Below, piece after piece: positions 38,596-64,000 of a stretch of 64,000 bases of DNA. A program made the translations under genes and the position numbers. Source of the stretch: Candidatus Tepidiaquacellales bacterium OLB4/UTCHB1 (GTDB taxonomy: Bacteria > Bacteroidota > Ignavibacteria > Tepidaquicellales > Tepidaquicellaceae); the NCBI GenBank assembly GCA_002050165.1, contig MWSW01000016.1:1-64000 (forward strand), read 5' to 3'. Each line of letters starts with the position of its first letter. The stretch's first letter is position 1. Below the pieces are notes generated by a model. It did not search any database, was not told the origin of the DNA, and was given only the letters and a program-made list of their open reading frames with translations.

Positions 38596-41500
38596 TTATT
38601 GAATTGCAATCCTGATGTTAAGACCACCTTCATTAGACGTATTGGGAACCGTACTTGCATTACCGGAGGTAGGTTCGGTCTTTACGTTCTTGAAAAATAA
38701 TTGCATTTGAACTCTCTGACTAAGCGAGTATTGAATAGACGGATTGATCGTAGTTATCGAAGAACCATTACCTTCCAGTTTTTCCGGAATTGAGCCGCCG
38801 GTAATAAACCTGTAGTCTATCGGATTTGTTACATTGCGAGAAATTGTAAGCGCAAAGGTAATGTCATTTTTCAGTGATAGTCCGAATAATGGGATTTCAA
38901 ACCCGGCTTTTGAAAAGTTGACATTCAAACTCCAGTCTGAATTGTTCGTAGTCCGTATAAGGTTAGTAGATGGTTCAAGCCGGTTCTCTTTAGTAATGTT
39001 GTATCTTAAATTTGCACTTAGATTTCCTCCGAACGCTTCCTTAAAAGTAACGTTAATACCAAATAGTGGTGAGAATGAATTTCGCACAATTTGCGTTGAC
39101 GGACTTTCCACATCAAATCTGTTAACTGAAATTCTCTCTGAATATTCCGATACAAATGAATTTTCAATTGTAACTGAAGAAGCGAACTGCTCAAAGAACG
39201 CAAACTTTTCAACCCCAGTGACCGAAAGAGTCCAGTTTGGGAAAGGGAACGACGATAGCTCATTACGAAATTTTGACGACAGATTCTTTATATCTTCTGA
39301 AGAGTTCCCTGTCGGCTCAAACCTGAAATCATCAACATTAGCACCAAAGAATACAGTGTTACTTCTTTCAATATTTGTAGCTTTATTAGTCTGAGTTGAA
39401 TATCCGCCGAATTCATCTGTATTGAATGTATTGGTTTTATCGAAACCCCACTTCTTTTTGAAAGTAAGGTTCATTTTTATATTGTCAGAAATTGGCGTTA
39501 TTGTTGAGGATAAAGATAAATCGTTCAACAGATTCATATTGTCGGTAATGGAGAGATTTGGTGCTCGCTCTCCGGGGTACTGAGATAAACCTAATTGATA
39601 AAGTCTCGATGGTCCTAAATTAGGTTCATGCGAAAATTCAAACCAGAAGTTTCCGAATCCGGGTCTGCCAATGACGCCGGGGTTAGATATAGTATTAGTT
39701 TGCCTAAAAGTTGCGTTGATAGAAGTCGGCAAGAAACTTGATAATATTTTAAAAATGTCACCGATGTTCTGCCCTTCCCTATCGTCCATAGTTGAACCCG
39801 CCCTGAGCTTTGACGGTTCGGAAGAAAATATGTTAAAAATCTCCTTCAAATTTAAGTTCGCCCCTGCTGTTACGGTATTGTTGTATCCCACATTGTATCC
39901 GATATTTTCAGTTGAGTTCGGGTTTCGCCAGCCATAAGTTACATTATATGATAAATTGAGGTCCATAAATTTATTAAGGAACGGCAAATTAAATCTAGGA
40001 TTGAAAGTAGTTGTTTGAGCGTAGTCAAGATCTCTGCCGAAATTAACCAGAGCATTATTGAAAAATATATCATCAAGTACTTCACTGGTCGGTCTTTGAA
40101 TCAGGATTGAGTCGCCGATAGTTTCAAAAGGAGTAAGATCGCTCCCAATAGTTACCCGATAAGTTCCTGTAAGGTCAACTAACCAGTCTTCAATAAATTT
40201 CCAATCGAAACTGAATCCCCTGTTGGCCTTAAATATTCTCGAAGTCGGATCATCGAAATCCAACTGTCTCTGCCGCTTTTCATCACGAGTACGGTTAAAA
40301 TCCGTCACCGCATTAAAATTTTTCGAGAACAGCGGAGCTAATGGAATAAAAGGTAAAGCTAAATAAATTTTTCCCTCTTTGTAGTCTTCACCAAGATTTA
40401 TAAGTTCCCCGATATTAAGATTAAGAATGTCAGTTAATCCGAAATCGGTTGTGAAATCAATTCCACCTCTAACATCAAAATTCTCGCGCCTTTCAAAAAT
40501 CACATCACGCGAATGCCCAAAGTTAGCACTAAAGTTAAAAAGGAAACGATTGAGAAATGTTTTAACAATATAGTTGTTACTTGGGAAATTGAACTGCATA
40601 CCCTGTATGGACAATTCATTTCTTATTTCAAGTGATTGCGCTTCAATCCTTAGTTTTTCGCTTTCAAACCTTGCATACTCCTCATTACCGGTCTCCTGAA
40701 GTAGACTTTTATAACGCTCCTCAACAGCTTTATCGAGATTGATATCCGTACCTGGATAAAATTTCGGTTTGCTTAGTATTTCAGAATGTCTGAAGGTTAA
40801 GGGCAGATTTATAAATTTGCTCCAATCTTCGGAGAACAACGACGAAAATGTATTGTTAATGAATTTGTGCAGATTTATTGTACCGTTAACATCCCAACTC
40901 TGTCCGGTACGTCGTGTCCCGAAGCGTTCATCAATTCTAAAGAAGTTAGGTGAGGTTTTCGAGTAATTGAAATTAAGAGTCATTAAATCTGCAAATTTTA
41001 CACCTGCGTTTATATTGAATGCATATCCATTATCGTCATCGACGTTTAATACTCTTATCTCATTAAACCAGACACTACCCGAAATTGAAGTATTTACACT
41101 CGTTCTGTTTTTTTCAACACCGAGAACAATTTCCCTGATAGAATTCAAAGCAGGATTTCCTTTAATTCTGTAAACTGATCCGGGCGGACCTCCAGGCACG
41201 GGCATATCTATTACCTGCGATATTGAATCACGCGCCGATTTCAACGCAGTGAGATCAGCAAAATTAATCGTTACTTCATTATACTGATTCCAAGGTTGGC
41301 CGGGCCTAACATCAGGTCTTACGGGTGCACGGTATTCATAATAATTATTTGAATCTGAACCTAACCTGATGAGCATTGTCGCATCGTAAACATCTTCGCT
41401 CGTATAGTTGAAAGTCGGATCACCGTTTACGAACAGTTTCAACATTTTATAATTGAATAAATCGAGCGTTTGTGTCCGGAAATCTTTTATCGCCAACTTT

Positions 41501-44500
41501 CTTTCGCCATTAACCAGATTTGAAACTCCGATTGAAAGTGATGATTCATTAGAGAGAGTGTTTACACCGGTAGTATTTTGAATTTCCTGACGTAACACAT
41601 TTCCGGGAACGGGACTTTGATAAATTTGAGGGTTCTCTTCAATGCTGACAACCGAGATGGTATAGCTTGTATCGCTCCGGTCAGGTTTAAACCATTGGTT
41701 ACCAACGAGGTTGAAATCAACGAAAGCAAGCCTAAGCGAATCTTCGACACCTGCTATCCATACTCGGGCATACTCAATATTTCTCAGGTCAGCCTGACCA
41801 ACTTTTTCAACAAATTCTGATAGCGGGATTGAATACTGAAACCAACCTGTGCCCTCCTTTCCGGTACCCGAAATATACCTGTTTGCAGTAGTGTCAAGTG
41901 AAATTTCATATTTAAAATACGAATTGCTTAAATCGGAACGACCATTTCTGTTCAGATCTTCCGTATCGGGGCGATTACCACCTTCATAAATTGCATTAAA
42001 CTGAGTTCCGTTTATCAGATCGTAAATACCTTGATTTGCAGTTGTTCCGGTAGGATCGTTATTATCTAGTGCGGGATCACCACTTTCGAAATCTGACAAT
42101 GATAGCGATGTTCCGTTAATACTGTTATAATATTCCAACTCCCTTTCATCTACAAAGAAATCGAGACCAATATCAAACTCATTTCTCAGGATACCATTTC
42201 TCAATGAATCCTCCGTATCTAGCTTACCGTTCGGAATCACATCTTCAGAAATGGTTCCGAGATCTATCACTAGCTTTCCGTTTTTGAGTGCACTGGGATT
42301 ACTAGTCTCAATACGCATATTAAACTCAATGAAATTTATATTTTCATTGAGTAAGTCTGTAGAAGTCGTATTTAAAAATTTCATCATTCCACCCCAAACC
42401 TGCCTTCGATTAACGGATTGATTGAACACCCCTGTCTGAGTAGTATAATTTGAGGAATAGTTGTATCTGCCCCTTTTATTCGGATTGAACTGGACATACA
42501 ACGGTGTAATCATATCCTGCCCCGGTTGTACATCCCGCGCCGGAAAAATATCCTTAATTGATACCTGCTGATTCGGATTATTGTACCAAATAAATCTACC
42601 TCTGTTATTTGATCTCACGGTAATCGTATCTCCGATCGAAGTATCAGCGGGAGCTGAAGCTAAGGTCCACGTACTGTAATTTGTTCCGAGTGATACAATT
42701 TTTTTAGCGCCCTCCATATCATCAACGTATGCAACCGGTTCGTTATTATCCTGCGGGATTCTACTTCGCTTTGTATTTGGATCAGGAATCATGTAAGCAA
42801 ACTCCCCTTTTAAAGTTACAGCCGACTCCTCCTTTGTATTGTAACCTGGTAACATATTGACAATGTTCGTGAGAAGTTTCGGTTTGAATTCTGTAACGAA
42901 ATCAATTCCTATCATACTATTGTTTGTCGGTTCCTCACCAATCCTCACCTTGTCGTTTAATGTTTCCTGTTTCAGATTAAGGAAAGTAAATCCAATGGAA
43001 GTTTTGTCGTTTACTTTATAGTCACCTCGTGCACCGATTAAAGTTTTTGATGCGAGCGAAAATAGTTCATTCGTTTCATATCGAATCTTCAAGTCTTTAG
43101 AAATTAACGCAGCTGCATTTTTAATCATCACTGTTCCGGTTGAATAATCCACGCTATAATCAATATTGTTCACAAGTTCGGTTGTCCCAATCAGAACCTT
43201 TACACTGCCCGGGACAACATTGAAACCAAGATTTATTACATTGCTGATACCCGCTTCACCTTTTCCTTTTCCTTGAATTATATAGGTGTTGGCATTACTT
43301 GAAGTAGAAGCTACGTTTTTAGATTGAGTGTAAATTTCTTTAAACCACAGAGTGGAGTCAACATTTGCTTCTTTAAGGTCATCAAAGAACGGCCTCAAAC
43401 TCGGGAATATTATGTCCCCTGTTTCGGTGTTAATTGTGTACCCCGGAAGAAAGTCAAACTTATCGTCCGGTGGACCTACCCGGGAATTCTCCTGAAATCT
43501 GTCAAGCTTCACAATTTGCAGCAATGGGGTTGAAACGTTTGGGATGTTTGGCTTGTACTGGTTATTATCGTTATAGTTTACCTTCAGCTCAAAATTCTCT
43601 TTAATTACTTTAGAGATGGGTAAACGATAAATATTTTTTAATTTCAGTTCCCATGCAAGCGGGGCCATGTCGGGATTAGTAACATTAGTTTTTACCAATT
43701 TGATTAACATCGTATCTTCGGAAGCTACCAGCCTGCTTGGCGTACCGAATTGATTGTCTTGTGTTTTATAAACCACCCCGATATGGAAATTTTGGGGTAT
43801 ATTAATTCGCAAAGAAAGATAACCCGCGATCTCGTTGAAATAATATTCGCTTGGTGAAAGCTTTCTGAAATATCCGGCAAAATTCATCCCGGGAGTATCT
43901 TGTGGAGTTTTGAGAGAATCCGGGTAACCACCCTGTGGCTGAGGCCCGAGCATTATATATCCTGCAGCGTAACGATAATCAACGACTGTTACATCCGTCT
44001 GTACCCAAACTTCAAAATCCGGATCATCCCCAAGCACCCGGTTCAATACTGTCTGTGGTTGATATTGTCCTATGTTAGTTGAATTATAATAATCAAGGAA
44101 ACTTGATTTGTAAATGGTATCGAGAAGAAAATGGTTGTCAGAGTAATCAAATACATTGATAGTAAATGTTTGATCCTGAACACCACCGGTAAAATCTTTC
44201 TCTTCCTGTTTACTTTTTTTCTGTGAGACTACAGTTGTTAAGGTAAGCGGACCGAGTTGAAATTCCCCTTTAATTCCAAATAACGCCTGAGTTGATTGTA
44301 TTAATCCGGAATTTGTCTGTAACGAAACGTTACCGGCTTCAATTCGCTTTATTACTTCGTCGGCATAACCCTCATATTTTATCTTCAGTTGATTCTCAAA
44401 GTCAAAAACCCGTTGAGTATTCCAGTCGGCATCTATTGATAGCTTGTCGCCAACTTTCCCCTTCGCGGTTACAAGGACTTCCTGCTTGAAGTTGATATTG

Positions 44501-45189
44501 TTCTGTGAATTCGATGATAGAGACGATACGGTTTGTTCACGACTTACATTTTCGTACGAAGCAGTGATATCAATAGCTCCGGTTATTCTGAGATTAATTG
44601 TCGGTGGACCGAAAATTGTTTCGCTCGTGAACGGAAGTGGGATAGTAATGTCAGTAAATTTTTCAAACAACTGTGTGAGCTCGTCTTCAATTACACCCGT
44701 AAACTTTTCCGAAACAATCGTAGTGAATACTTCGCTCGTCTTTGCTTTCGATAGTTGTTCTAAATAATCATCAAAAGTCAGTACCAACGGTGCTTTAATA
44801 TCTTCACCCATAAATTGCCTTCGAATGATAACAACATTTGAATCAAACGAAACTGATTCGTTTATCAGATTTGAGCCTCTGAGGATATATGGGTGATGGA
44901 TTTCATTTAGCGAAACTCCCGGCGAATACTCTTCTTTGTAAACGAACAACATCTGTCGAGCCATAGTGTCAACGTCCTGTACATATACGGATTTTGTCGT
45001 ATCAATATAATAGATATATGTGGTAGTGTCGTTTGGATCGTAAGGTTCATAAATAGTATGATCCCAGTCTCGCCTTCCTTGCGAAAAAGAAACATTGCTA
45101 AAAGCGGAGAGATTTATTATAATTGTAACGGCCGCAACAATTATTAAATGCGTGGATTTGTGCAAACCGGAATTAAAAACCTTTGTCAA
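38596..45189 (-). CDS. sprA: T9SS outer-membrane translocon SprA
   Basis: At 2197 residues this is the largest gene. SprA is the outer-membrane pore of the type IX secretion system, a 36-strand barrel that carries folded cargo to the cell surface. The sequence has a signal peptide at about 1-35, then long beta-rich repeats and SprA-family phrases such as QTNSGLIQSTQALFGIKGEF and MMKFLNTTSTDLLNENINF. It ends with a barrel-type strand. It is somewhat shorter than the roughly 2400 residues usual in Bacteroidetes. Other Por components are outside the window. The T9SS tails of 1583-2899, 3133-3975 and 19586-22363 are its expected cargo. Confidence 0.95.
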   Translation of the reverse strand: MTKVFNSGLHKSTHLIIVAAVTIIINLSAFSNVSFSQGRRDWDHTIYEPYDPNDTTTYIYYIDTTKSVYVQDVDTMARQMLFVYKEEYSPGVSLNEIHHPYILRGSNLINESVSFDSNVVIIRRQFMGEDIKAPLVLTFDDYLEQLSKAKTSEVFTTIVSEKFTGVIEDELTQLFEKFTDITIPLPFTSETIFGPPTINLRITGAIDITASYENVSREQTVSSLSSNSQNNINFKQEVLVTAKGKVGDKLSIDADWNTQRVFDFENQLKIKYEGYADEVIKRIEAGNVSLQTNSGLIQSTQALFGIKGEFQLGPLTLTTVVSQKKSKQEEKDFTGGVQDQTFTINVFDYSDNHFLLDTIYKSSFLDYYNSTNIGQYQPQTVLNRVLGDDPDFEVWVQTDVTVVDYRYAAGYIMLGPQPQGGYPDSLKTPQDTPGMNFAGYFRKLSPSEYYFNEIAGYLSLRINIPQNFHIGVVYKTQDNQFGTPSRLVASEDTMLIKLVKTNVTNPDMAPLAWELKLKNIYRLPISKVIKENFELKVNYNDNNQYKPNIPNVSTPLLQIVKLDRFQENSRVGPPDDKFDFLPGYTINTETGDIIFPSLRPFFDDLKEANVDSTLWFKEIYTQSKNVASTSSNANTYIIQGKGKGEAGISNVINLGFNVVPGSVKVLIGTTELVNNIDYSVDYSTGTVMIKNAAALISKDLKIRYETNELFSLASKTLIGARGDYKVNDKTSIGFTFLNLKQETLNDKVRIGEEPTNNSMIGIDFVTEFKPKLLTNIVNMLPGYNTKEESAVTLKGEFAYMIPDPNTKRSRIPQDNNEPVAYVDDMEGAKKIVSLGTNYSTWTLASAPADTSIGDTITVRSNNRGRFIWYNNPNQQVSIKDIFPARDVQPGQDMITPLYVQFNPNKRGRYNYSSNYTTQTGVFNQSVNRRQVWGGMMKFLNTTSTDLLNENINFIEFNMRIETSNPSALKNGKLVIDLGTISEDVIPNGKLDTEDSLRNGILRNEFDIGLDFFVDERELEYYNSINGTSLSLSDFESGDPALDNNDPTGTTANQGIYDLINGTQFNAIYEGGNRPDTEDLNRNGRSDLSNSYFKYEISLDTTANRYISGTGKEGTGWFQYSIPLSEFVEKVGQADLRNIEYARVWIAGVEDSLRLAFVDFNLVGNQWFKPDRSDTSYTISVVSIEENPQIYQSPVPGNVLRQEIQNTTGVNTLSNESSLSIGVSNLVNGERKLAIKDFRTQTLDLFNYKMLKLFVNGDPTFNYTSEDVYDATMLIRLGSDSNNYYEYRAPVRPDVRPGQPWNQYNEVTINFADLTALKSARDSISQVIDMPVPGGPPGSVYRIKGNPALNSIREIVLGVEKNRTSVNTSISGSVWFNEIRVLNVDDDNGYAFNINAGVKFADLMTLNFNYSKTSPNFFRIDERFGTRRTGQSWDVNGTINLHKFINNTFSSLFSEDWSKFINLPLTFRHSEILSKPKFYPGTDINLDKAVEERYKSLLQETGNEEYARFESEKLRIEAQSLEIRNELSIQGMQFNFPSNNYIVKTFLNRFLFNFSANFGHSRDVIFERRENFDVRGGIDFTTDFGLTDILNLNIGELINLGEDYKEGKIYLALPFIPLAPLFSKNFNAVTDFNRTRDEKRQRQLDFDDPTSRIFKANRGFSFDWKFIEDWLVDLTGTYRVTIGSDLTPFETIGDSILIQRPTSEVLDDIFFNNALVNFGRDLDYAQTTTFNPRFNLPFLNKFMDLNLSYNVTYGWRNPNSTENIGYNVGYNNTVTAGANLNLKEIFNIFSSEPSKLRAGSTMDDREGQNIGDIFKILSSFLPTSINATFRQTNTISNPGVIGRPGFGNFWFEFSHEPNLGPSRLYQLGLSQYPGERAPNLSITDNMNLLNDLSLSSTITPISDNIKMNLTFKKKWGFDKTNTFNTDEFGGYSTQTNKATNIERSNTVFFGANVDDFRFEPTGNSSEDIKNLSSKFRNELSSFPFPNWTLSVTGVEKFAFFEQFASSVTIENSFVSEYSERISVNRFDVESPSTQIVRNSFSPLFGINVTFKEAFGGNLSANLRYNITKENRLEPSTNLIRTTNNSDWSLNVNFSKAGFEIPLFGLSLKNDITFALTISRNVTNPIDYRFITGGSIPEKLEGNGSSITTINPSIQYSLSQRVQMQLFFKNVKTEPTSGNASTVPNTSNEGGLNIRIAIQ

Positions 45190-55011: not shown

Positions 55012-56181
55012 CTAATTAGTTAAGCTCAATACAAGTTTTTGAAACTCTCCGAAATTATCAGCGTCACTTTCATGACTTTCACTACTTATCATTCTCACTG
55101 CAACAATGCGGTTAGTCGGATCAATGATAATGTAATTGCCTAAATATCCGTCTGCACGAAATGAAATATTCCCACTGTGCGATTTTTTGTAAAAGCGGTT
55201 ATTTGAACCCAGTTTGTTTCGTATCAATTCTATCGGATTATCCCCAAAAACTTTCAGCATATTTGAATAGAATTCATCTTCCGATTTATATATCCCTTTG
55301 AGTTCAATCATCTTTTCAATAAAGTCTGACGAAATATCCGCCTCTTTCAATTCATCAATAATTTCATCATCAATGGTGAAAGTTGTAGTCTCGTAATTAA
55401 TCCACCACAAAAGACCATATCCATCGTACATTTTGGATGGAGTAACCAACGCCTTAATACAATCCTTTGCAATCACAACCTTATTGTTGAACGTTCCTTC
55501 ATTGAGAATCAGGAGTCCCAATTTTACGAAATCATTCGGCTTTATCTGACAACCTGACATTGCATGCGGATTCCCCGCACTATCCAATGACCAGGTGAAA
55601 TCCGTTATCCCTAACGGCCTGAATAACCGCTCACCAATGTAAAGATCCATTCGCTTACCGCTAATTTTTTCGATTACACCAGCTAACAGATTCACTGACT
55701 TATTGTTGTAAGCCCATTGTTTACCGGGAATGCTTGACAGCTCCGCACAAAGCGCCAATTGTACAAAGTCCGGGCTCGGATAAATTTCAATTGAGGTGTT
55801 AGGGTAATTTTGAAGTCCTGATGTCATTTCCAGAAGGTGCCTGATTGTAATAAACTGTTTCTGTCCCTGTCGCCACTCCGGATAATAAGTTGAAACGGGA
55901 ACATTGAGGCTGTCAATTAATTTATCAGTAAGCAAACACGCAACTGCAAGTCCGACTATACTTTTCGTGCAAGACATACTTTCGATTTTGTTATCAGCCC
56001 GTCCGGTTCCGAAATAACTCTCCGTGATTAATGAATCTCCTTTGTAAATTATAACCGCTTCAGAATGTGTCTGCTCGGCGACCTTCAACAAACTGTCAAG
56101 TAATGTCTTGTTAATTTCCTGAGTGTAGGAAGTAACTCCCGTGAATAATAAAATCAAATTAAGAAAAACAACTTTAATCAT
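55012..56181 (-). CDS. Serine hydrolase (class C beta-lactamase family)
   Basis: The protein is 389 residues with the ATG at 56181 chosen, because AAGGAGG lies four bases upstream and the first residues then form a signal peptide (MIKVVFLNLILLFTGVTSYTQ in pieces). The active-site SxxK is Ser70-Cys-Thr-Lys73 (MSCTKS), and the YxN-type tyrosine is in AYNNKSVNL. These are the marks of the penicillin-binding/class C beta-lactamase fold. Relatives include esterases and D-aminopeptidases, so antibiotic resistance should not be assumed. It is a single gene. Confidence 0.9.
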   Translation of the reverse strand: MIKVVFLNLILLFTGVTSYTQEINKTLLDSLLKVAEQTHSEAVIIYKGDSLITESYFGTGRADNKIESMSCTKSIVGLAVACLLTDKLIDSLNVPVSTYYPEWRQGQKQFITIRHLLEMTSGLQNYPNTSIEIYPSPDFVQLALCAELSSIPGKQWAYNNKSVNLLAGVIEKISGKRMDLYIGERLFRPLGITDFTWSLDSAGNPHAMSGCQIKPNDFVKLGLLILNEGTFNNKVVIAKDCIKALVTPSKMYDGYGLLWWINYETTTFTIDDEIIDELKEADISSDFIEKMIELKGIYKSEDEFYSNMLKVFGDNPIELIRNKLGSNNRFYKKSHSGNISFRADGYLGNYIIIDPTNRIVAVRMISSESHESDADNFGEFQKLVLSLTN

Positions 56182-56603
56182 ATATCCTCCTTTTACGATT
56201 ATTCGATAATTCAAAAATTTTCGATGGAATGTGTAATTTCTTAGCAATTTGAAAATATTTTGAAATAAGTAGTAATGATAAATCAACCTGCGAGAATTAA
56301 TTTCTAATTCAAGTTTAACTGCATTAAACTATAAAAATTGTACATTACGCTCACAGTAAAGGTTAAAATTAAATCCGTTTGCACTTAAAGTCTCACTCGT
56401 ACGACCAAAACTTTTTTGAATCTATTCAAAGAGTTTAAATCAAAATGTTAGTCATGTAACATCGCATAATGTTAAAATGCTAACTTAAAGCGCGGAATGC
56501 TTTAATGAAGTTGTTTATAAAAAATAGGAATGTTTAAATACACATCAAATGTATTTTTGAAAACAATTGCCATCAATCTTTACGATGCTATTTCGATTTA
56601 AAT
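56182..56603. other. Intergenic region with SD of the serine hydrolase
   Basis: The 422-bp gap lies between the serine-hydrolase start and the PLP-enzyme stop. The clear element is AAGGAGG at 56186-56192 on the minus strand, the ribosome-binding site of the hydrolase. No gene, tRNA or terminator is visible. The AT-rich stretch near 56440-56480 has short imperfect repeats of no certain meaning. Confidence 0.5.
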
Positions 56604-57950: not shown

Positions 57951-57968
57951 TGACTAAGGTTTTAGTCA
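57951..57968. repeat. Perfect 7-bp hairpin over the stop of the 57962 gene
   Basis: TGACTAA and TTAGTCA are separated by four bases and overlap the minus-strand stop codon at 57962. There is no T tract after it in either direction, so a simple terminator is unlikely. Its role is unknown. Confidence 0.35.
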
Positions 57969-59848
57969 GTTAATTTATTTGCGAATTCATAAAATACTCT
58001 CGCCCATCGCATAGCCGGGATGCCGTAAGCAATTCCGTGCCTGACAATGATTAATTTTTTATTCGGACAAACGTATAAATATTGACCTTTGTTGCCAATT
58101 CCAAAAAAATCGTTCATGCTCCCAATGCGTTTCATTCCCCACCAAAAGTAGCTGTAATATCCACCGCCATTGTTAAAAAATCCGTTATCGGGATAATGTG
58201 AACTCGCCGTATCAAACGTCTGCGTTGACTTATTAACCCACTCGCTTGATATTATTTGTTCACCATTCCAGTTACCGAGTTTCAGCATTAGTCTACCTAT
58301 TTTCGCGAAATCAATTGCGTGCGCATTTACTCCGCTCTCCATTTTCTCAAATCCATTTTCATCGGTACTCCATGAACCGTCATAGTTCATTCCGATTGGG
58401 CCCCATAATTTCTCATGCATATACTCGGTTACCGGTTTTCCGACAGCCCTCTCGAGAATTAAACCCAACAACAATGGATTGTAGTTATTATATAGAAAGC
58501 GCGATCCGGGTGATTCGATAATATCGGTTTCGTTAATCGCCACATACCTTAAATCATAGTGACCATATGTAATATCATCATCTCTGTATTCACCACCCTC
58601 TTCATAGCGAAGACCTGAAGACATTGTCAGTAAATCGCGAATTGTAATTTCTCCGAAGCGTTCATTTCTTCCAAGCAATTCAGGGATATGATTTGTTATC
58701 GGTTCATTTTCACCTGTGATGAAACCATCCTCTATTGCCATTCCTACCAGAATTGACGTGATTGATTTGGCGATTGAAAATGAAGTAACGATTGACTCCC
58801 GTGAGTAACCGTTATAATACTTTTCAAATAATACCGTATCGTCTTTTATAACAATAAAAGAAGTTGTAAGCGTCCGTTCCAGAAAGTAATCAAAATCGGA
58901 AATGCGATTCAATGGTTCAATACCGGTTGATTCAAAAATTTTTGTTACTTCATTTTCATTAGAGTTATAAACGAACTCAAAGGGTTTTGTACTTGCAGGT
59001 AGCTCCTTTTTCTGAAAAATTTTGTAATCAATCACCGATGCGTCACCCAATGCAATACGTCTTCCCTCAAAGGTTTTAATATCGAAAAGATTAGCCCTCG
59101 ATTTCTTAAATTCGACTAAAGCATTGATATCAACACCGGTCAGATTTTTAACACGACTTTTTTCTATCCCACTGAACCGGACTTTCCTGAACTGTGAAAG
59201 ATGAGAGTAATTATTTCCGTCAAACTCCGGATAGTCATATTCCCTTCCGTTAGCAGCATCGAAGCGGACTAACTTAAACGCCATTTCAACATCTTTCTTC
59301 CGGGTGTCAAACGGTATATCTCTGAACGGTATAGCCATTTCAATTACATAGAATTTATCGTTCACAATCGCAGCGCTTTTCCATTCGTTACTGAACACCA
59401 TCTCAGGACTGCCATCCATATTCAGGCTACCGTCAATTTGTCCTCCGTCGCAATTGGATATAAAAAAAAGTGCGCTCAATCCATCTGCGTAACCATCCAG
59501 ACAAATGGCAACCCATTCACCTTGCAAATTTCGTTCGTCATCTTTCGGATAATGCGCCAGATTTAATGTTTCCTTATTTTTAAAAAATGATTTAAACGCC
59601 ACGTACAGGAAAGACGAATCATACAAAACGAATGCTTCAGTGTTAAACAAAGGTTTATTGTTCGAATACAATTCGAGGAAAGAAGTAATTTTGCTTGCAC
59701 TTCCCCATTCAGTTTCTTTTATTATACCGTCTATTTTAATCGTGCCAGGTTTAATTTTTTGAGGTTCAAATGAGTTGTTTTCTTCATCGTCTGTCTGTGC
59801 GTAGCAGGAATTTAGAAACAGAATTAGAACCGTGAGGAATATTTTCAT
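57962..59848 (-). CDS. Serine hydrolase with N-terminal CBM9-like domain
   Basis: The 628-residue secreted protein has a signal or lipoprotein signal (LNSCYAQ, either cleavage possible). Residues about 35-220 resemble a DOMON/CBM9-like sandwich (GTIKIDGIIKETEWGSA, AFVLYDSSFLYVAFKSF). From 320 onward it is a class C beta-lactamase-fold hydrolase with SxxK in SFSIAKSITSIL, a YxN-type tyrosine in LYNNYNPLLLGL, and HGIAYG near the C-terminus in place of the KTG motif. Substrate is unknown; the first domain may bind a carbohydrate. It shares only the fold with 55012-56181. Confidence 0.88.
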   Translation of the reverse strand: MKIFLTVLILFLNSCYAQTDDEENNSFEPQKIKPGTIKIDGIIKETEWGSASKITSFLELYSNNKPLFNTEAFVLYDSSFLYVAFKSFFKNKETLNLAHYPKDDERNLQGEWVAICLDGYADGLSALFFISNCDGGQIDGSLNMDGSPEMVFSNEWKSAAIVNDKFYVIEMAIPFRDIPFDTRKKDVEMAFKLVRFDAANGREYDYPEFDGNNYSHLSQFRKVRFSGIEKSRVKNLTGVDINALVEFKKSRANLFDIKTFEGRRIALGDASVIDYKIFQKKELPASTKPFEFVYNSNENEVTKIFESTGIEPLNRISDFDYFLERTLTTSFIVIKDDTVLFEKYYNGYSRESIVTSFSIAKSITSILVGMAIEDGFITGENEPITNHIPELLGRNERFGEITIRDLLTMSSGLRYEEGGEYRDDDITYGHYDLRYVAINETDIIESPGSRFLYNNYNPLLLGLILERAVGKPVTEYMHEKLWGPIGMNYDGSWSTDENGFEKMESGVNAHAIDFAKIGRLMLKLGNWNGEQIISSEWVNKSTQTFDTASSHYPDNGFFNNGGGYYSYFWWGMKRIGSMNDFFGIGNKGQYLYVCPNKKLIIVRHGIAYGIPAMRWARVFYEFANKLTD

Positions 59849-60019: not shown

Positions 60020-60436
60020 CTACAAGTTCTCCTCGACAAATAATTTGCAATATTCTTTTATCTGTTGTCTTACAAGTCTGAACTCATTTTTAATTTGATC
60101 GTCCGAACCTTTTGCTTTTGCGGGATCGGGAAAGTTGTGATGAAATATTTTTGTGTTGTCAGGGAAGTACGGGCAATGCTCTCTTGCATTATCACAAACT
60201 GTGATTACAAAATCAAAGTGCATTTTAAAATACTTATCAACTTTATCCGATGTTTGACCGGAAATATCGATACCGTCTTCCAACATAGTCGCTATTGCCA
60301 TGGGATTTACACCGTGAGCTTCCAATCCGGCGCTGTAAACATCAGCCTTGTCCCCCGCCAATTCTCTCAAATATCCTTCAGCAATTTGACTTCGACAACT
60401 ATTCCCCGTGCAAAGTACCAATATCATCTTGCTCAT
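60020..60436 (-). CDS. arsC: Thioredoxin-coupled arsenate reductase ArsC
   Basis: The 138-residue enzyme reduces arsenate to arsenite in the cytoplasm using thioredoxin. It has the low-molecular-weight phosphatase P-loop CTGNSCR with Cys9 as the attacking residue. Cys81 and Cys88 in VCDNAREHC form the disulfide relay, matching the three cysteines of the Staphylococcus enzyme. FPDPAKAKG carries the conserved Asp-Pro. It follows arsM after 55 bases and is probably cotranscribed. Confidence 0.96.
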   Translation of the reverse strand: MSKMILVLCTGNSCRSQIAEGYLRELAGDKADVYSAGLEAHGVNPMAIATMLEDGIDISGQTSDKVDKYFKMHFDFVITVCDNAREHCPYFPDNTKIFHHNFPDPAKAKGSDDQIKNEFRLVRQQIKEYCKLFVEENL

Positions 60437-60491
60437 TAGATCAATATCAATTTAGTTTCCATTAAACATTTTCAGGACTGCAAAAGCTTTT

Positions 60492-61295
60492 TTACTTCTC
60501 GGCATAGATTGTGACACTAAAAATTATATCCGGGTTTGAATTATATACTGTAATTTCCTCATCGGTCAGATAAATTTTAAGGATATCATTCGGAACTATG
60601 ATAGGTTTCTCTTTTTGTAATGTGATATTTTTAAAACCTGCCTCCTTGATGATTTGCAGATAATCCGATTTTTGAATCGCACTTGCAACGCAACCTACAT
60701 ACATTTCGGCAGTGTTTTTAATTTTTTCTGGTAAATCTCCGGTGAGGACAATATCCGAAATGCTGAAATGTCCACCCGCTTTGAGAATGCGGAAAACTTC
60801 GCTGAAAGCCTTAGGTTTATCCGGTACGAGATTCATCACACAATTGCTTACAACTACATCTGCTGTATTATCTGCAACCGGAATATTTTCGATATCGCCT
60901 AAACGAAACTCAACATTACTGAACTTCAATTTTTCCGCATTTGATCTTGCTTTTTCAACCATCGTTTCAGTAAAGTCAACTCCGATTACCATACCGCTTT
61001 CACCGGTTTCGTGACGGGCAACAAAGCAGTCATTCCCAGCTCCACTTCCAAGATCTACGACTGTATCACCTTTTTTTATTTTTGCAAATTCAGTCGGCAA
61101 ACCGCAACCCAACTTTAAATCCGCTTCAGGAATGTAACCGTCGAGGTTTTCGTATTCTTCATTCATAATGTTATAAACTTCTGTGCTGCAACTACCACTG
61201 CCGCAACATGAAGAAGCGTTTATATCGCTATTCTGCAAAGCAATTTCATTGTACTTTTGCTTTACCATTTCTTTGATTTTATCGTTATTGTTCAT
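60492..61295 (-). CDS. arsM: Arsenite S-adenosylmethionine methyltransferase ArsM
   Basis: The 267-residue enzyme methylates arsenite to less toxic volatile products. An N-terminal SCCGSGSC segment precedes the SAM site VDLGSGAGNDC, VIGVDFTETMVEKAR and FRLGDIENIPV. The arsenic-binding cysteines are Cys64 (LGCGLP), Cys152 (SNCVMNL) and Cys202 (YVGCVAS), as in known ArsM. It is first in arsM-arsC. No ArsR repressor or arsenite pump is adjacent, although a 13-base palindrome lies at 61364-61376 in the upstream gap. Confidence 0.96.
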   Translation of the reverse strand: MNNNDKIKEMVKQKYNEIALQNSDINASSCCGSGSCSTEVYNIMNEEYENLDGYIPEADLKLGCGLPTEFAKIKKGDTVVDLGSGAGNDCFVARHETGESGMVIGVDFTETMVEKARSNAEKLKFSNVEFRLGDIENIPVADNTADVVVSNCVMNLVPDKPKAFSEVFRILKAGGHFSISDIVLTGDLPEKIKNTAEMYVGCVASAIQKSDYLQIIKEAGFKNITLQKEKPIIVPNDILKIYLTDEEITVYNSNPDIIFSVTIYAEK

Positions 61296-62579: not shown

Positions 62580-64000
62580 TTGACTAATCGGTTAAATATC
62601 ATTTGGTTGATAATATTTATATTTGTCACTTTCAGCTCAGATTCAACCAAAGCTCAGATTAAAATATTTGAAAGGGACCCTGCAATACAGGAATTCCCTA
62701 CATTAATCACAGCGGGATTAACGAGAACAATTATTCCGCTTAACGGTCAATGGCAGGTATCGTTCAATGATTACAAATCCTTTTCTGAAGTTAACGTTCC
62801 ATCATGTTACGACTATTCAGGCGTTGCCGTTTTCCAAAGGTATTTCAAAATTCCATTCAATAATCCCGAGGAATATAACTTCATCATCGTTGCCGAAGGG
62901 ATAAACTACTACTCCAGAATTTCTATAAACGGTAATTTCGTTACTGAGCATTATGGCGGTTACGATTCATTTATAGCAACAATCGAGAATGGTCTTATAA
63001 CGAGCGAGAACTTCATTGAAATTAAAATTGACAACGAACTTAGCTTTAAATCAACATTGCCGTTATCTGAACAGGTAAATTACCCCAAAAACTTTGGCGG
63101 GATTTACAGGGATATTTACATTGTGGTAGTACCTAGAGTTTATACAGCCGAAAACCATCTGGTTTATAAGTTCACTTCCCCCAATACGATTAATCTAAAA
63201 AATTCGGTAAAAATCAGAACGGGAAATATTTCATCAGGGAACGGGCATCAGGAATTTATTTTGCAATCTTTTTTACTCGATGATACAAGTGATGCGGTAA
63301 TTTCAGAAAGTCAGGAAGTACGATTTACTACAGGTAATTTCACCTCTGAGGAATATTCAAACCATTTCAGCGCTACGTTACCTTCGCTGTGGTCGCCCGA
63401 TAACCCGAAACTCTACAGGCTTAAAACGACAATTAAGGATATTGACGGTAATATCATTGATGAGATGATCGTTACCACAGGTTTCCGCGATGTAACAATA
63501 AAAAGCAATCACGTCTTACTGAACGGGAAAAAATCCTTAATCAACGTATTGAACTATTATGTGCAAAACCCAAACGAACTCATTGCAGTAAGTTACTCAT
63601 CCGTTGAACGCGATGTTTCATTGATTAAACAAATGGGCTTTAATGCGATAAGGACTCCGGGTGTTACCGCGCACCCTTATCTTATAAAAGCTGCTGAGAA
63701 AGCCGGGTTGTTCATCTTCCAGGAATTTGCATTTAACGAGGTTCCGGCAGAAATAATGAGCGATCAATACCTTGAATCTGCTTATGGATATCTAACCTCA
63801 GTAATAAATCGCGACCGGAACTCGCCGGCGATAATTGCATGGGGTATCGGAAATGATTTTAACGTTACCGAACAAAGGAGCGTTGATTATGTGAAGGGAG
63901 CATATTCAATCGTAAAAGCACTTGACTCGCGTCAGGTTTATTATACTTCGAGGAACATTAAAGATGATATTTGCAGGCATTACGTAGATTTTAAGGGCAT
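62580..64000 (+). CDS. Glycoside hydrolase family 2-like protein (C-terminal part missing)
   Basis: The frame is open from TTG at 62580 to the window edge. An in-frame stop at 62577 rules out an upstream start. It has a signal peptide (LIIFIFVTFSS, then KAQ), a jelly-roll sugar-binding domain (LNGQWQVSF, GGIYRDIYIVVVPR), an Ig-like domain (SLWSPDNPKLYRLKT, TTGFRDV) and the start of a TIM barrel (KQMGFNAIRTP, FIFQEFAFNEVP). The acid/base residue is altered: WGIGND carries Asp (about residue 426, codon 63855-63857) where GH2 enzymes have Glu in GNE. The usual kGvnrH segment is also degenerate (LINVLNYY). Confidence 0.87.
   Translation, partial: MTNRLNIIWLIIFIFVTFSSDSTKAQIKIFERDPAIQEFPTLITAGLTRTIIPLNGQWQVSFNDYKSFSEVNVPSCYDYSGVAVFQRYFKIPFNNPEEYNFIIVAEGINYYSRISINGNFVTEHYGGYDSFIATIENGLITSENFIEIKIDNELSFKSTLPLSEQVNYPKNFGGIYRDIYIVVVPRVYTAENHLVYKFTSPNTINLKNSVKIRTGNISSGNGHQEFILQSFLLDDTSDAVISESQEVRFTTGNFTSEEYSNHFSATLPSLWSPDNPKLYRLKTTIKDIDGNIIDEMIVTTGFRDVTIKSNHVLLNGKKSLINVLNYYVQNPNELIAVSYSSVERDVSLIKQMGFNAIRTPGVTAHPYLIKAAEKAGLFIFQEFAFNEVPAEIMSDQYLESAYGYLTSVINRDRNSPAIIAWGIGNDFNVTEQRSVDYVKGAYSIVKALDSRQVYYTSRNIKDDICRHYVDFKG

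Follow-up and report, generated by a model that had tools for sequence, protein, structure and literature searches.

Klotho, a membrane-anchored protein that is itself a pseudoglycosidase, acts as a co-receptor. Klotho (GH1-like), YKL-39 (GH18-like) and CyRPA (GH33-like) have all kept a glycosidase fold but lost catalysis, and pseudoglycosidases from other sources bind glycans or protein partners (PMC7828330). For prokaryotic Yip1 proteins no function has been reported, although a role as membrane receptors has been suggested (PMC6682643). Our search of the open-access literature, a scope outside which most subscription journals lie, found no publication on GH2 pseudoenzymes or on Yip1-GH fusions.

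The gene described here lies at the end of the window, i.e. the whole analysed stretch of 64,000 nucleotides from Candidatus Tepidiaquacellales bacterium OLB4/UTCHB1 (contig MWSW01000016.1, positions 1 to 64,000), and encodes a GH2 fold joined to a membrane domain of probable Yip1 type. Its product resembles klotho, YKL-39 and CyRPA in that a glycosidase fold is retained while the catalytic residues are lost. In contrast to them, it belongs to another GH family, is bacterial, is fused to a polytopic, probably Yip1-type domain, occurs class-wide and is linked to smc. Pseudoglycosidases are a known kind of protein; the architecture and conservation seen here are unusual.

The GH2-Yip1 gene and its fold

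The open reading frame starts with TTG at 62580 on the + strand and is still open where the window stops. From the downstream sequence of the same contig, the full gene has 858 codons (858 aa) and ends at G000:C12:65156, beyond the window (Table 1). All three GH2 domains of the window protein exceed their curated cut-offs (GH2_C 62.2, GH2_N 38.2 and GH2 38.3 bits, vs 21, 28 and 23), and 120 distinct PDB sequences match the protein at E<=1e-3; the membership of its fold in GH2 is not a matter of chance. It shares the three-domain GH2 fold with the GH2 beta-galacturonidase/beta-glucuronidase structures 6ncw and 6d8k and with LacZ, the aligned residues being about 72-594. In addition, the AlphaFold model of an ortholog (12 sequences) matched GH2 structures with an E value of about 1e-33 in Foldseek, supporting the GH2_C barrel. 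The model is good for residues about 40-500 and poor after residue 503, so that the end of the barrel and the membrane part are without a reliable model. The product of this gene is the sole GH2_C match in its genome.

Table 1. Positions of the GH2-Yip1 gene, its domains and its altered active-site motifs (window coordinates unless stated otherwise).
Feature	Position	Strand	Basis or remark
5' portion of the GH2-Yip1 pseudoglycosidase gene, coding for residues 1-473 of 858	62580..64000	+	ORF and downstream sequence
Probable signal peptide (hydrophobic stretch at the N-terminus), residues 1-25	62580..62654	+	hydropathy peak at residues 5-23; predicted
GH2_N sugar-binding (jelly-roll) domain, residues 51-184	62730..63131	+	Pfam PF02837, E 1.8e-9
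GH2 immunoglobulin-like domain, residues 217-303	63228..63488	+	Pfam PF00703, E 2.6e-9
GH2_C TIM barrel, residues 305-594 (474 onward beyond window)	63492..64000	+	Pfam PF02836, E 6e-17
SLINVLNYY, degenerate KGVNRHE motif, residues 319-327	63534..63560	+	Tyr327 in place of active-site His
RTPGV, degenerate R..HY motif	63651..63665	+	Gly361 in place of second active-site His
GAT codon, Asp426 at GH2 acid/base Glu position	63855..63857	+	Asn425 before Asp426 kept
Nucleophile codon, Ser509 in PYFISSFG (GH2 Glu to Ser)	64104-64106 of contig, outside window	+	PDB alignment

Loss of the catalytic residues

In the beta-galactosidase and beta-glucuronidase families, the Glu of the NE motif is the acid/base. 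The active-site columns are those known for LacZ and beta-glucuronidase. As originally predicted, the codon at this position is GAT, and the protein reads WGIGND; the resulting Asp426 aligns with the acid/base Glu of solved GH2 enzymes in the PDB alignment. Among 28 orthologs from families f1 (the window's family) and f2, position 426 is D in 21, N in five and E in two (family codes here and below are those of the genome sample searched). Since D and N prevail, Asp426 is neither a sequencing error nor a private change. The original prediction had also taken SLINVLNYY for the segment that stands in the KGVNRHE place, and the comparison bears this out, with Tyr327 falling where all 12 further GH2 proteins compared from its class have His.

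The Glu nucleophile of the [ST]E[YF]G motif is likewise missing. The window protein reads PYFISSFG where 6ncw has PFLITEIG and 6d8k has PLIISEFG, the catalytic Glu of both structures aligning with Ser509, and a check on GH2 structures found no other Glu in the catalytic place. In contrast to LacZ and other GH2 enzymes, the window protein has its acid/base, nucleophile, both active-site His (of the NRHE and HYP motifs) and active-site Trp replaced, by Asp426, Ser509, Tyr327, Gly361 and Ser552, respectively, and a membrane domain added.

To place these changes within the family, its members were set against these 12 GH2 proteins from outside the family. In about 85 inactive relatives, structural positions are retained almost without exception: P74, N117, G174 and G577 at 100%, W58, W271, P276, D294, N355 and G376 at 99% each, and D556 at 98%. 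Retention at the active site is far lower (H327 2%, H361 8%, E426 13%, E509 15%, W552 25% and N425 38%). Because the structural columns are kept and the active-site columns lost, it is the whole catalytic set that has been removed on an intact scaffold, and not a single residue that has been substituted. With Asp at the acid/base, Ser at the nucleophile, and two His and the Trp gone, the barrel is predicted to be unable to perform the retaining GH2 reaction, and the protein would be expected to show no catalysis in the test tube. That the window protein is non-catalytic is, as far as sequence can tell, well supported; its catalytic residues are lost while fold and selection are maintained, as in a pseudoglycosidase.

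The C-terminal membrane domain

The GH2 domains are followed by about 260 residues that, judged by hydropathy, contain six hydrophobic segments in most orthologs. This membrane part resembles the prokaryotic Yip1 family (PF04893), which 40 of 49 orthologs match at E<=1; the matches are modest, the best having an E value of 1.4e-9, and the C-terminus of the window protein alone gave no Pfam match. It differs from Yip1 family proteins in having six hydrophobic segments instead of five and in being fused to a GH2 fold. At one locus in family f11 (L083:7938-8714, 258 aa) the gene encodes the Yip1 part only (32.8 bits vs a cut-off of 28.6): the GH2 domain has been lost in f11 while the place of the gene before smc stayed. 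Between helices 1 and 2 runs a conserved basic/aromatic loop, RRFRE..R.L.RPYNFFADIRDQR, which is weak in f1. The hydropathy profile suggests a topology in which the GH2 part is periplasmic and the anchor lies in the inner membrane.

Distribution and gene neighborhood

When a profile of the membrane part was used, the family was present in 96 of the 98 genomes of the same class (Ignavibacteria) in a phylum-wide sample, and 33 genomes outside this class matched in all. A wider count, 378 of 391, takes in ordinary GH2 enzymes and was set aside. Full-length relatives beyond the class occur in families f32, f35, f50 and f62. In addition, shorter relatives of 520-640 aa (loci L116-L121; families f39, f51, f53 and f65) consist of a degenerate barrel and the membrane part, with no jelly roll and no smc neighbor. 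The match of L121 covers the membrane part only, and three of these shorter relatives that were tested had no convincing Pfam match.

In the window genome, smc begins 3 nt after the GH2-Yip1 gene and is followed by genes for an M42 peptidase, an HAD phosphatase, a PEMT methyltransferase, lpxB, DUF374, lpxK, DUF4292 and M23, where lpxB and lpxK are putative identifications. The same gene order was found in records of class Ignavibacteria, such as Ignavibacteria bacterium UBA2360. Of 73 genera examined, 56 have a same-strand smc as the next gene downstream, at a median gap of 11 nt; counted by family, the figure is 22 of 33. Every tested family from other classes with the full-length form shows this adjacency. 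It is lacking in 11 families, f5 and a starred group made up of the rest, which cluster in the GH2 tree, and the linkage was therefore probably lost once; no alternative neighborhood common to all of them was found. In three of these 11 families, f7, f14 and f15, sprA (type IX secretion) is instead the divergent neighbor, in at least one genome of each (L064, L065, L071, L072 and L081), and DegT and GFO/IDH/MocA genes neighbor the GH2-Yip1 gene in f7 and f19. The LPS neighbor genes and sprA point to the envelope. The adjacency of smc raises the possibility of a link to the chromosome, which gene order alone cannot prove.

Evolution and selection

Only one family, f16 (six genomes of one genus; L042, L043 and L122-L125), keeps every GH2 catalytic motif, namely SRHEDHP, RLGHYP, WGIGNE and [ST]EYG. 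Its members match GH2_C with an E value of 8.7e-52 and GH2 enzymes with an E value of 6e-53. Behind the intact active site comes the family's usual Yip1 domain, and the gene lies upstream of smc; these proteins are predicted to be active enzymes. The other families differ in what they have lost. The acid/base Glu is kept in f18 and f23, which have Arg or Lys at the nucleophile; in f35, TEYG is present and the acid/base has become Gly; most f10 and f22 members retain a Glu where the nucleophile belongs, their acid/base being Ser or Gly; and f1 and f2 have Asp or Asn at the acid/base and Ser, Asn and others at the nucleophile.

All trees were built by quick searches without bootstraps. The inactive f8 comes out as the sister of f16 in both the Yip1 tree (support 94) and the SMC tree (support 84). 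In the tree of the GH2 part, f16 lies near the base of the family, a placement in which the active-site columns may draw it towards the outgroup. Since the residues lost vary between lineages, and f16 falls beside an inactive sister in the SMC and Yip1 trees, repeated independent inactivation is the most likely course; an active ancestor is favored because the regain of six residues at once is improbable. The best reading is thus an active ancestor followed by at least about five independent inactivations, a count drawn from moderately supported branches. We also considered whether the GH2 part of f16 had been swapped for an unrelated active enzyme; this is not favored, as the GH2 part of f16 still groups with the family and separates from eight further GH2 proteins found in the class, although the same pull of the active-site columns leaves some probability for it.

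For pairs of inactive orthologs with 85-94% identity, dN/dS was 0.02-0.04 overall and 0.03-0.06 in the GH2 part; these pairs, taken from f1 and f2, do not include the window's own genus, and the ratios are rough because several dS values are saturated. The inactive GH2-Yip1 proteins are functional and under strong purifying selection in close relatives. The family forms a natural series, from the intact enzyme of f16 through variously inactivated forms to forms whose GH2 part is reduced or gone, and because it spans this range, the conversion of an enzyme to a receptor is directly testable. In one genome (G027; L081:6770-9497), the coding sequence is broken into two frames that overlap, possibly through a frameshift or a recent break-up.

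Proposed role and alternatives

We favor, with a probability of about 0.62, a conserved, periplasm-facing pseudoglycosidase of the inner membrane that probably serves as a non-catalytic receptor or scaffold of the envelope. The N-terminal signal segment would send the complete GH2 fold (jelly roll, Ig-like domain and TIM barrel) to the periplasm, and the C-terminal six-helix Yip1-type domain would hold it in the inner membrane. The GH2 shell may then bind a partner in the periplasm, be it a glycan or a protein of the envelope, while the Yip1 bundle may transmit or localize this binding at the membrane. The setting would be a cluster of genes with roles in maintaining the envelope and the chromosome (smc, HAD, PEMT, lpxB, DUF374 and lpxK). 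Fold, catalytic-residue loss, purifying selection, conservation and gene order were established by computation; the periplasmic receptor or scaffold role is suggested by a GH2 shell that is predicted to be exported and held on a polytopic anchor, and that is both conserved and non-catalytic.

The original prediction offered, as one option, a non-catalytic sugar-binding protein. The first half of this option is supported, with both carboxylates, two His and the Trp gone, while sugar binding is possible. If the protein is a lectin, the old -1/+1 subsites would in every lineage still recognize one particular glycan of the envelope, making it a membrane-bound sugar sensor; we regard this as a tentative and rather unlikely alternative. 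Known pseudoglycosidases often keep glycan binding (PMC7828330), and some neighbors are glycan or LPS genes (lpxB and lpxK; DegT and GFO/IDH/MocA in f7 and f19). In f1 and f2, the pocket is conserved like the rest of the barrel, with N425 and G361 invariant in f1 and D, N or E at 426. Family-wide, however, the pocket core falls below the barrel average in conservation (0.17 vs 0.28, permutation fraction 0.09), and the nucleophile position is free to vary even in f1 (0.20). Pocket residues vary over the family as a whole, although the acid/base side, GN[DN]FDV, is conserved within the f1/f2 lineage; such partial conservation makes a lineage-specific ligand or chemistry possible in f1 and f2.

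The neighborhood invites another explanation, in which the cytosolic loops of the Yip1 domain touch SMC or the nucleoid and tie the chromosome to the envelope, with the GH2 part reading the wall. The adjacency of smc across several classes, its persistence in f11 where the Yip1 part stands alone, and the strongly conserved basic/aromatic loop between helices 1 and 2 speak for it. However, eleven families have the protein without an adjacent smc, operon sharing often means co-expression only, and the loop motif is weak in the window's own family. We consider this explanation improbable. Equally improbable is a wider version, a phylum-wide membrane pseudoglycosidase that would couple envelope state to SMC chromosome maintenance through the Yip1 cytosolic loops, its active ancestors having been inactivated independently on several occasions. 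The conserved place upstream of smc is a lead to the function of the prokaryotic Yip1 domain.

The altered mechanism that had been offered as the other option, with Asp as the acid/base and another residue as the nucleophile, or a non-hydrolytic reaction, is very unlikely. Asp or Asn at 426 beside an invariant N425 in f1 and f2 would fit it, as would the complete active site of f16, which implies a probably active ancestor; but the active-site Trp and both His have gone along with the nucleophile, and relatives share no substitute carboxylate at the nucleophile position, which is so variable among them (S, N, G, Y, H, K, R, A and others) as to argue against any such mechanism. That the gene is decaying and on its way out is scarcely credible: its active site is degenerate, and the gene is broken in two in G027 and shortened in f11, but full-length ORFs occur class-wide with structural positions intact, and the dN/dS values of 0.02-0.06 in relatives (f1 and f2 pairs) largely refute a decaying pseudogene.

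Sequence-based annotation would likely label these proteins beta-galactosidases or beta-glucuronidases. Since such mislabelling is likely and the window genome has no other GH2_C match, GH2 counts in Ignavibacteria can mislead on polysaccharide use.

Other genes in the window

Divergent from the GH2-Yip1 gene lies a gene for a membrane protein with the HXXEE motif (PF13787; 61658-62293, - strand). A 2197-residue ORF at 38596-45189 (-) matches SprA_N (PF14349), of the type IX secretion translocon. Two nearby genes at 55012-56286 (-) and 57962-59848 (-) encode beta-lactamase-fold proteins (PF00144); in the second, the first 320 or so residues gave no Pfam match. Finally, the region 60020-61295 (-) encodes a low-molecular-weight phosphatase-fold protein (ArsC-like) and a methyltransferase resembling ArsM, which probably form an arsenic gene pair.
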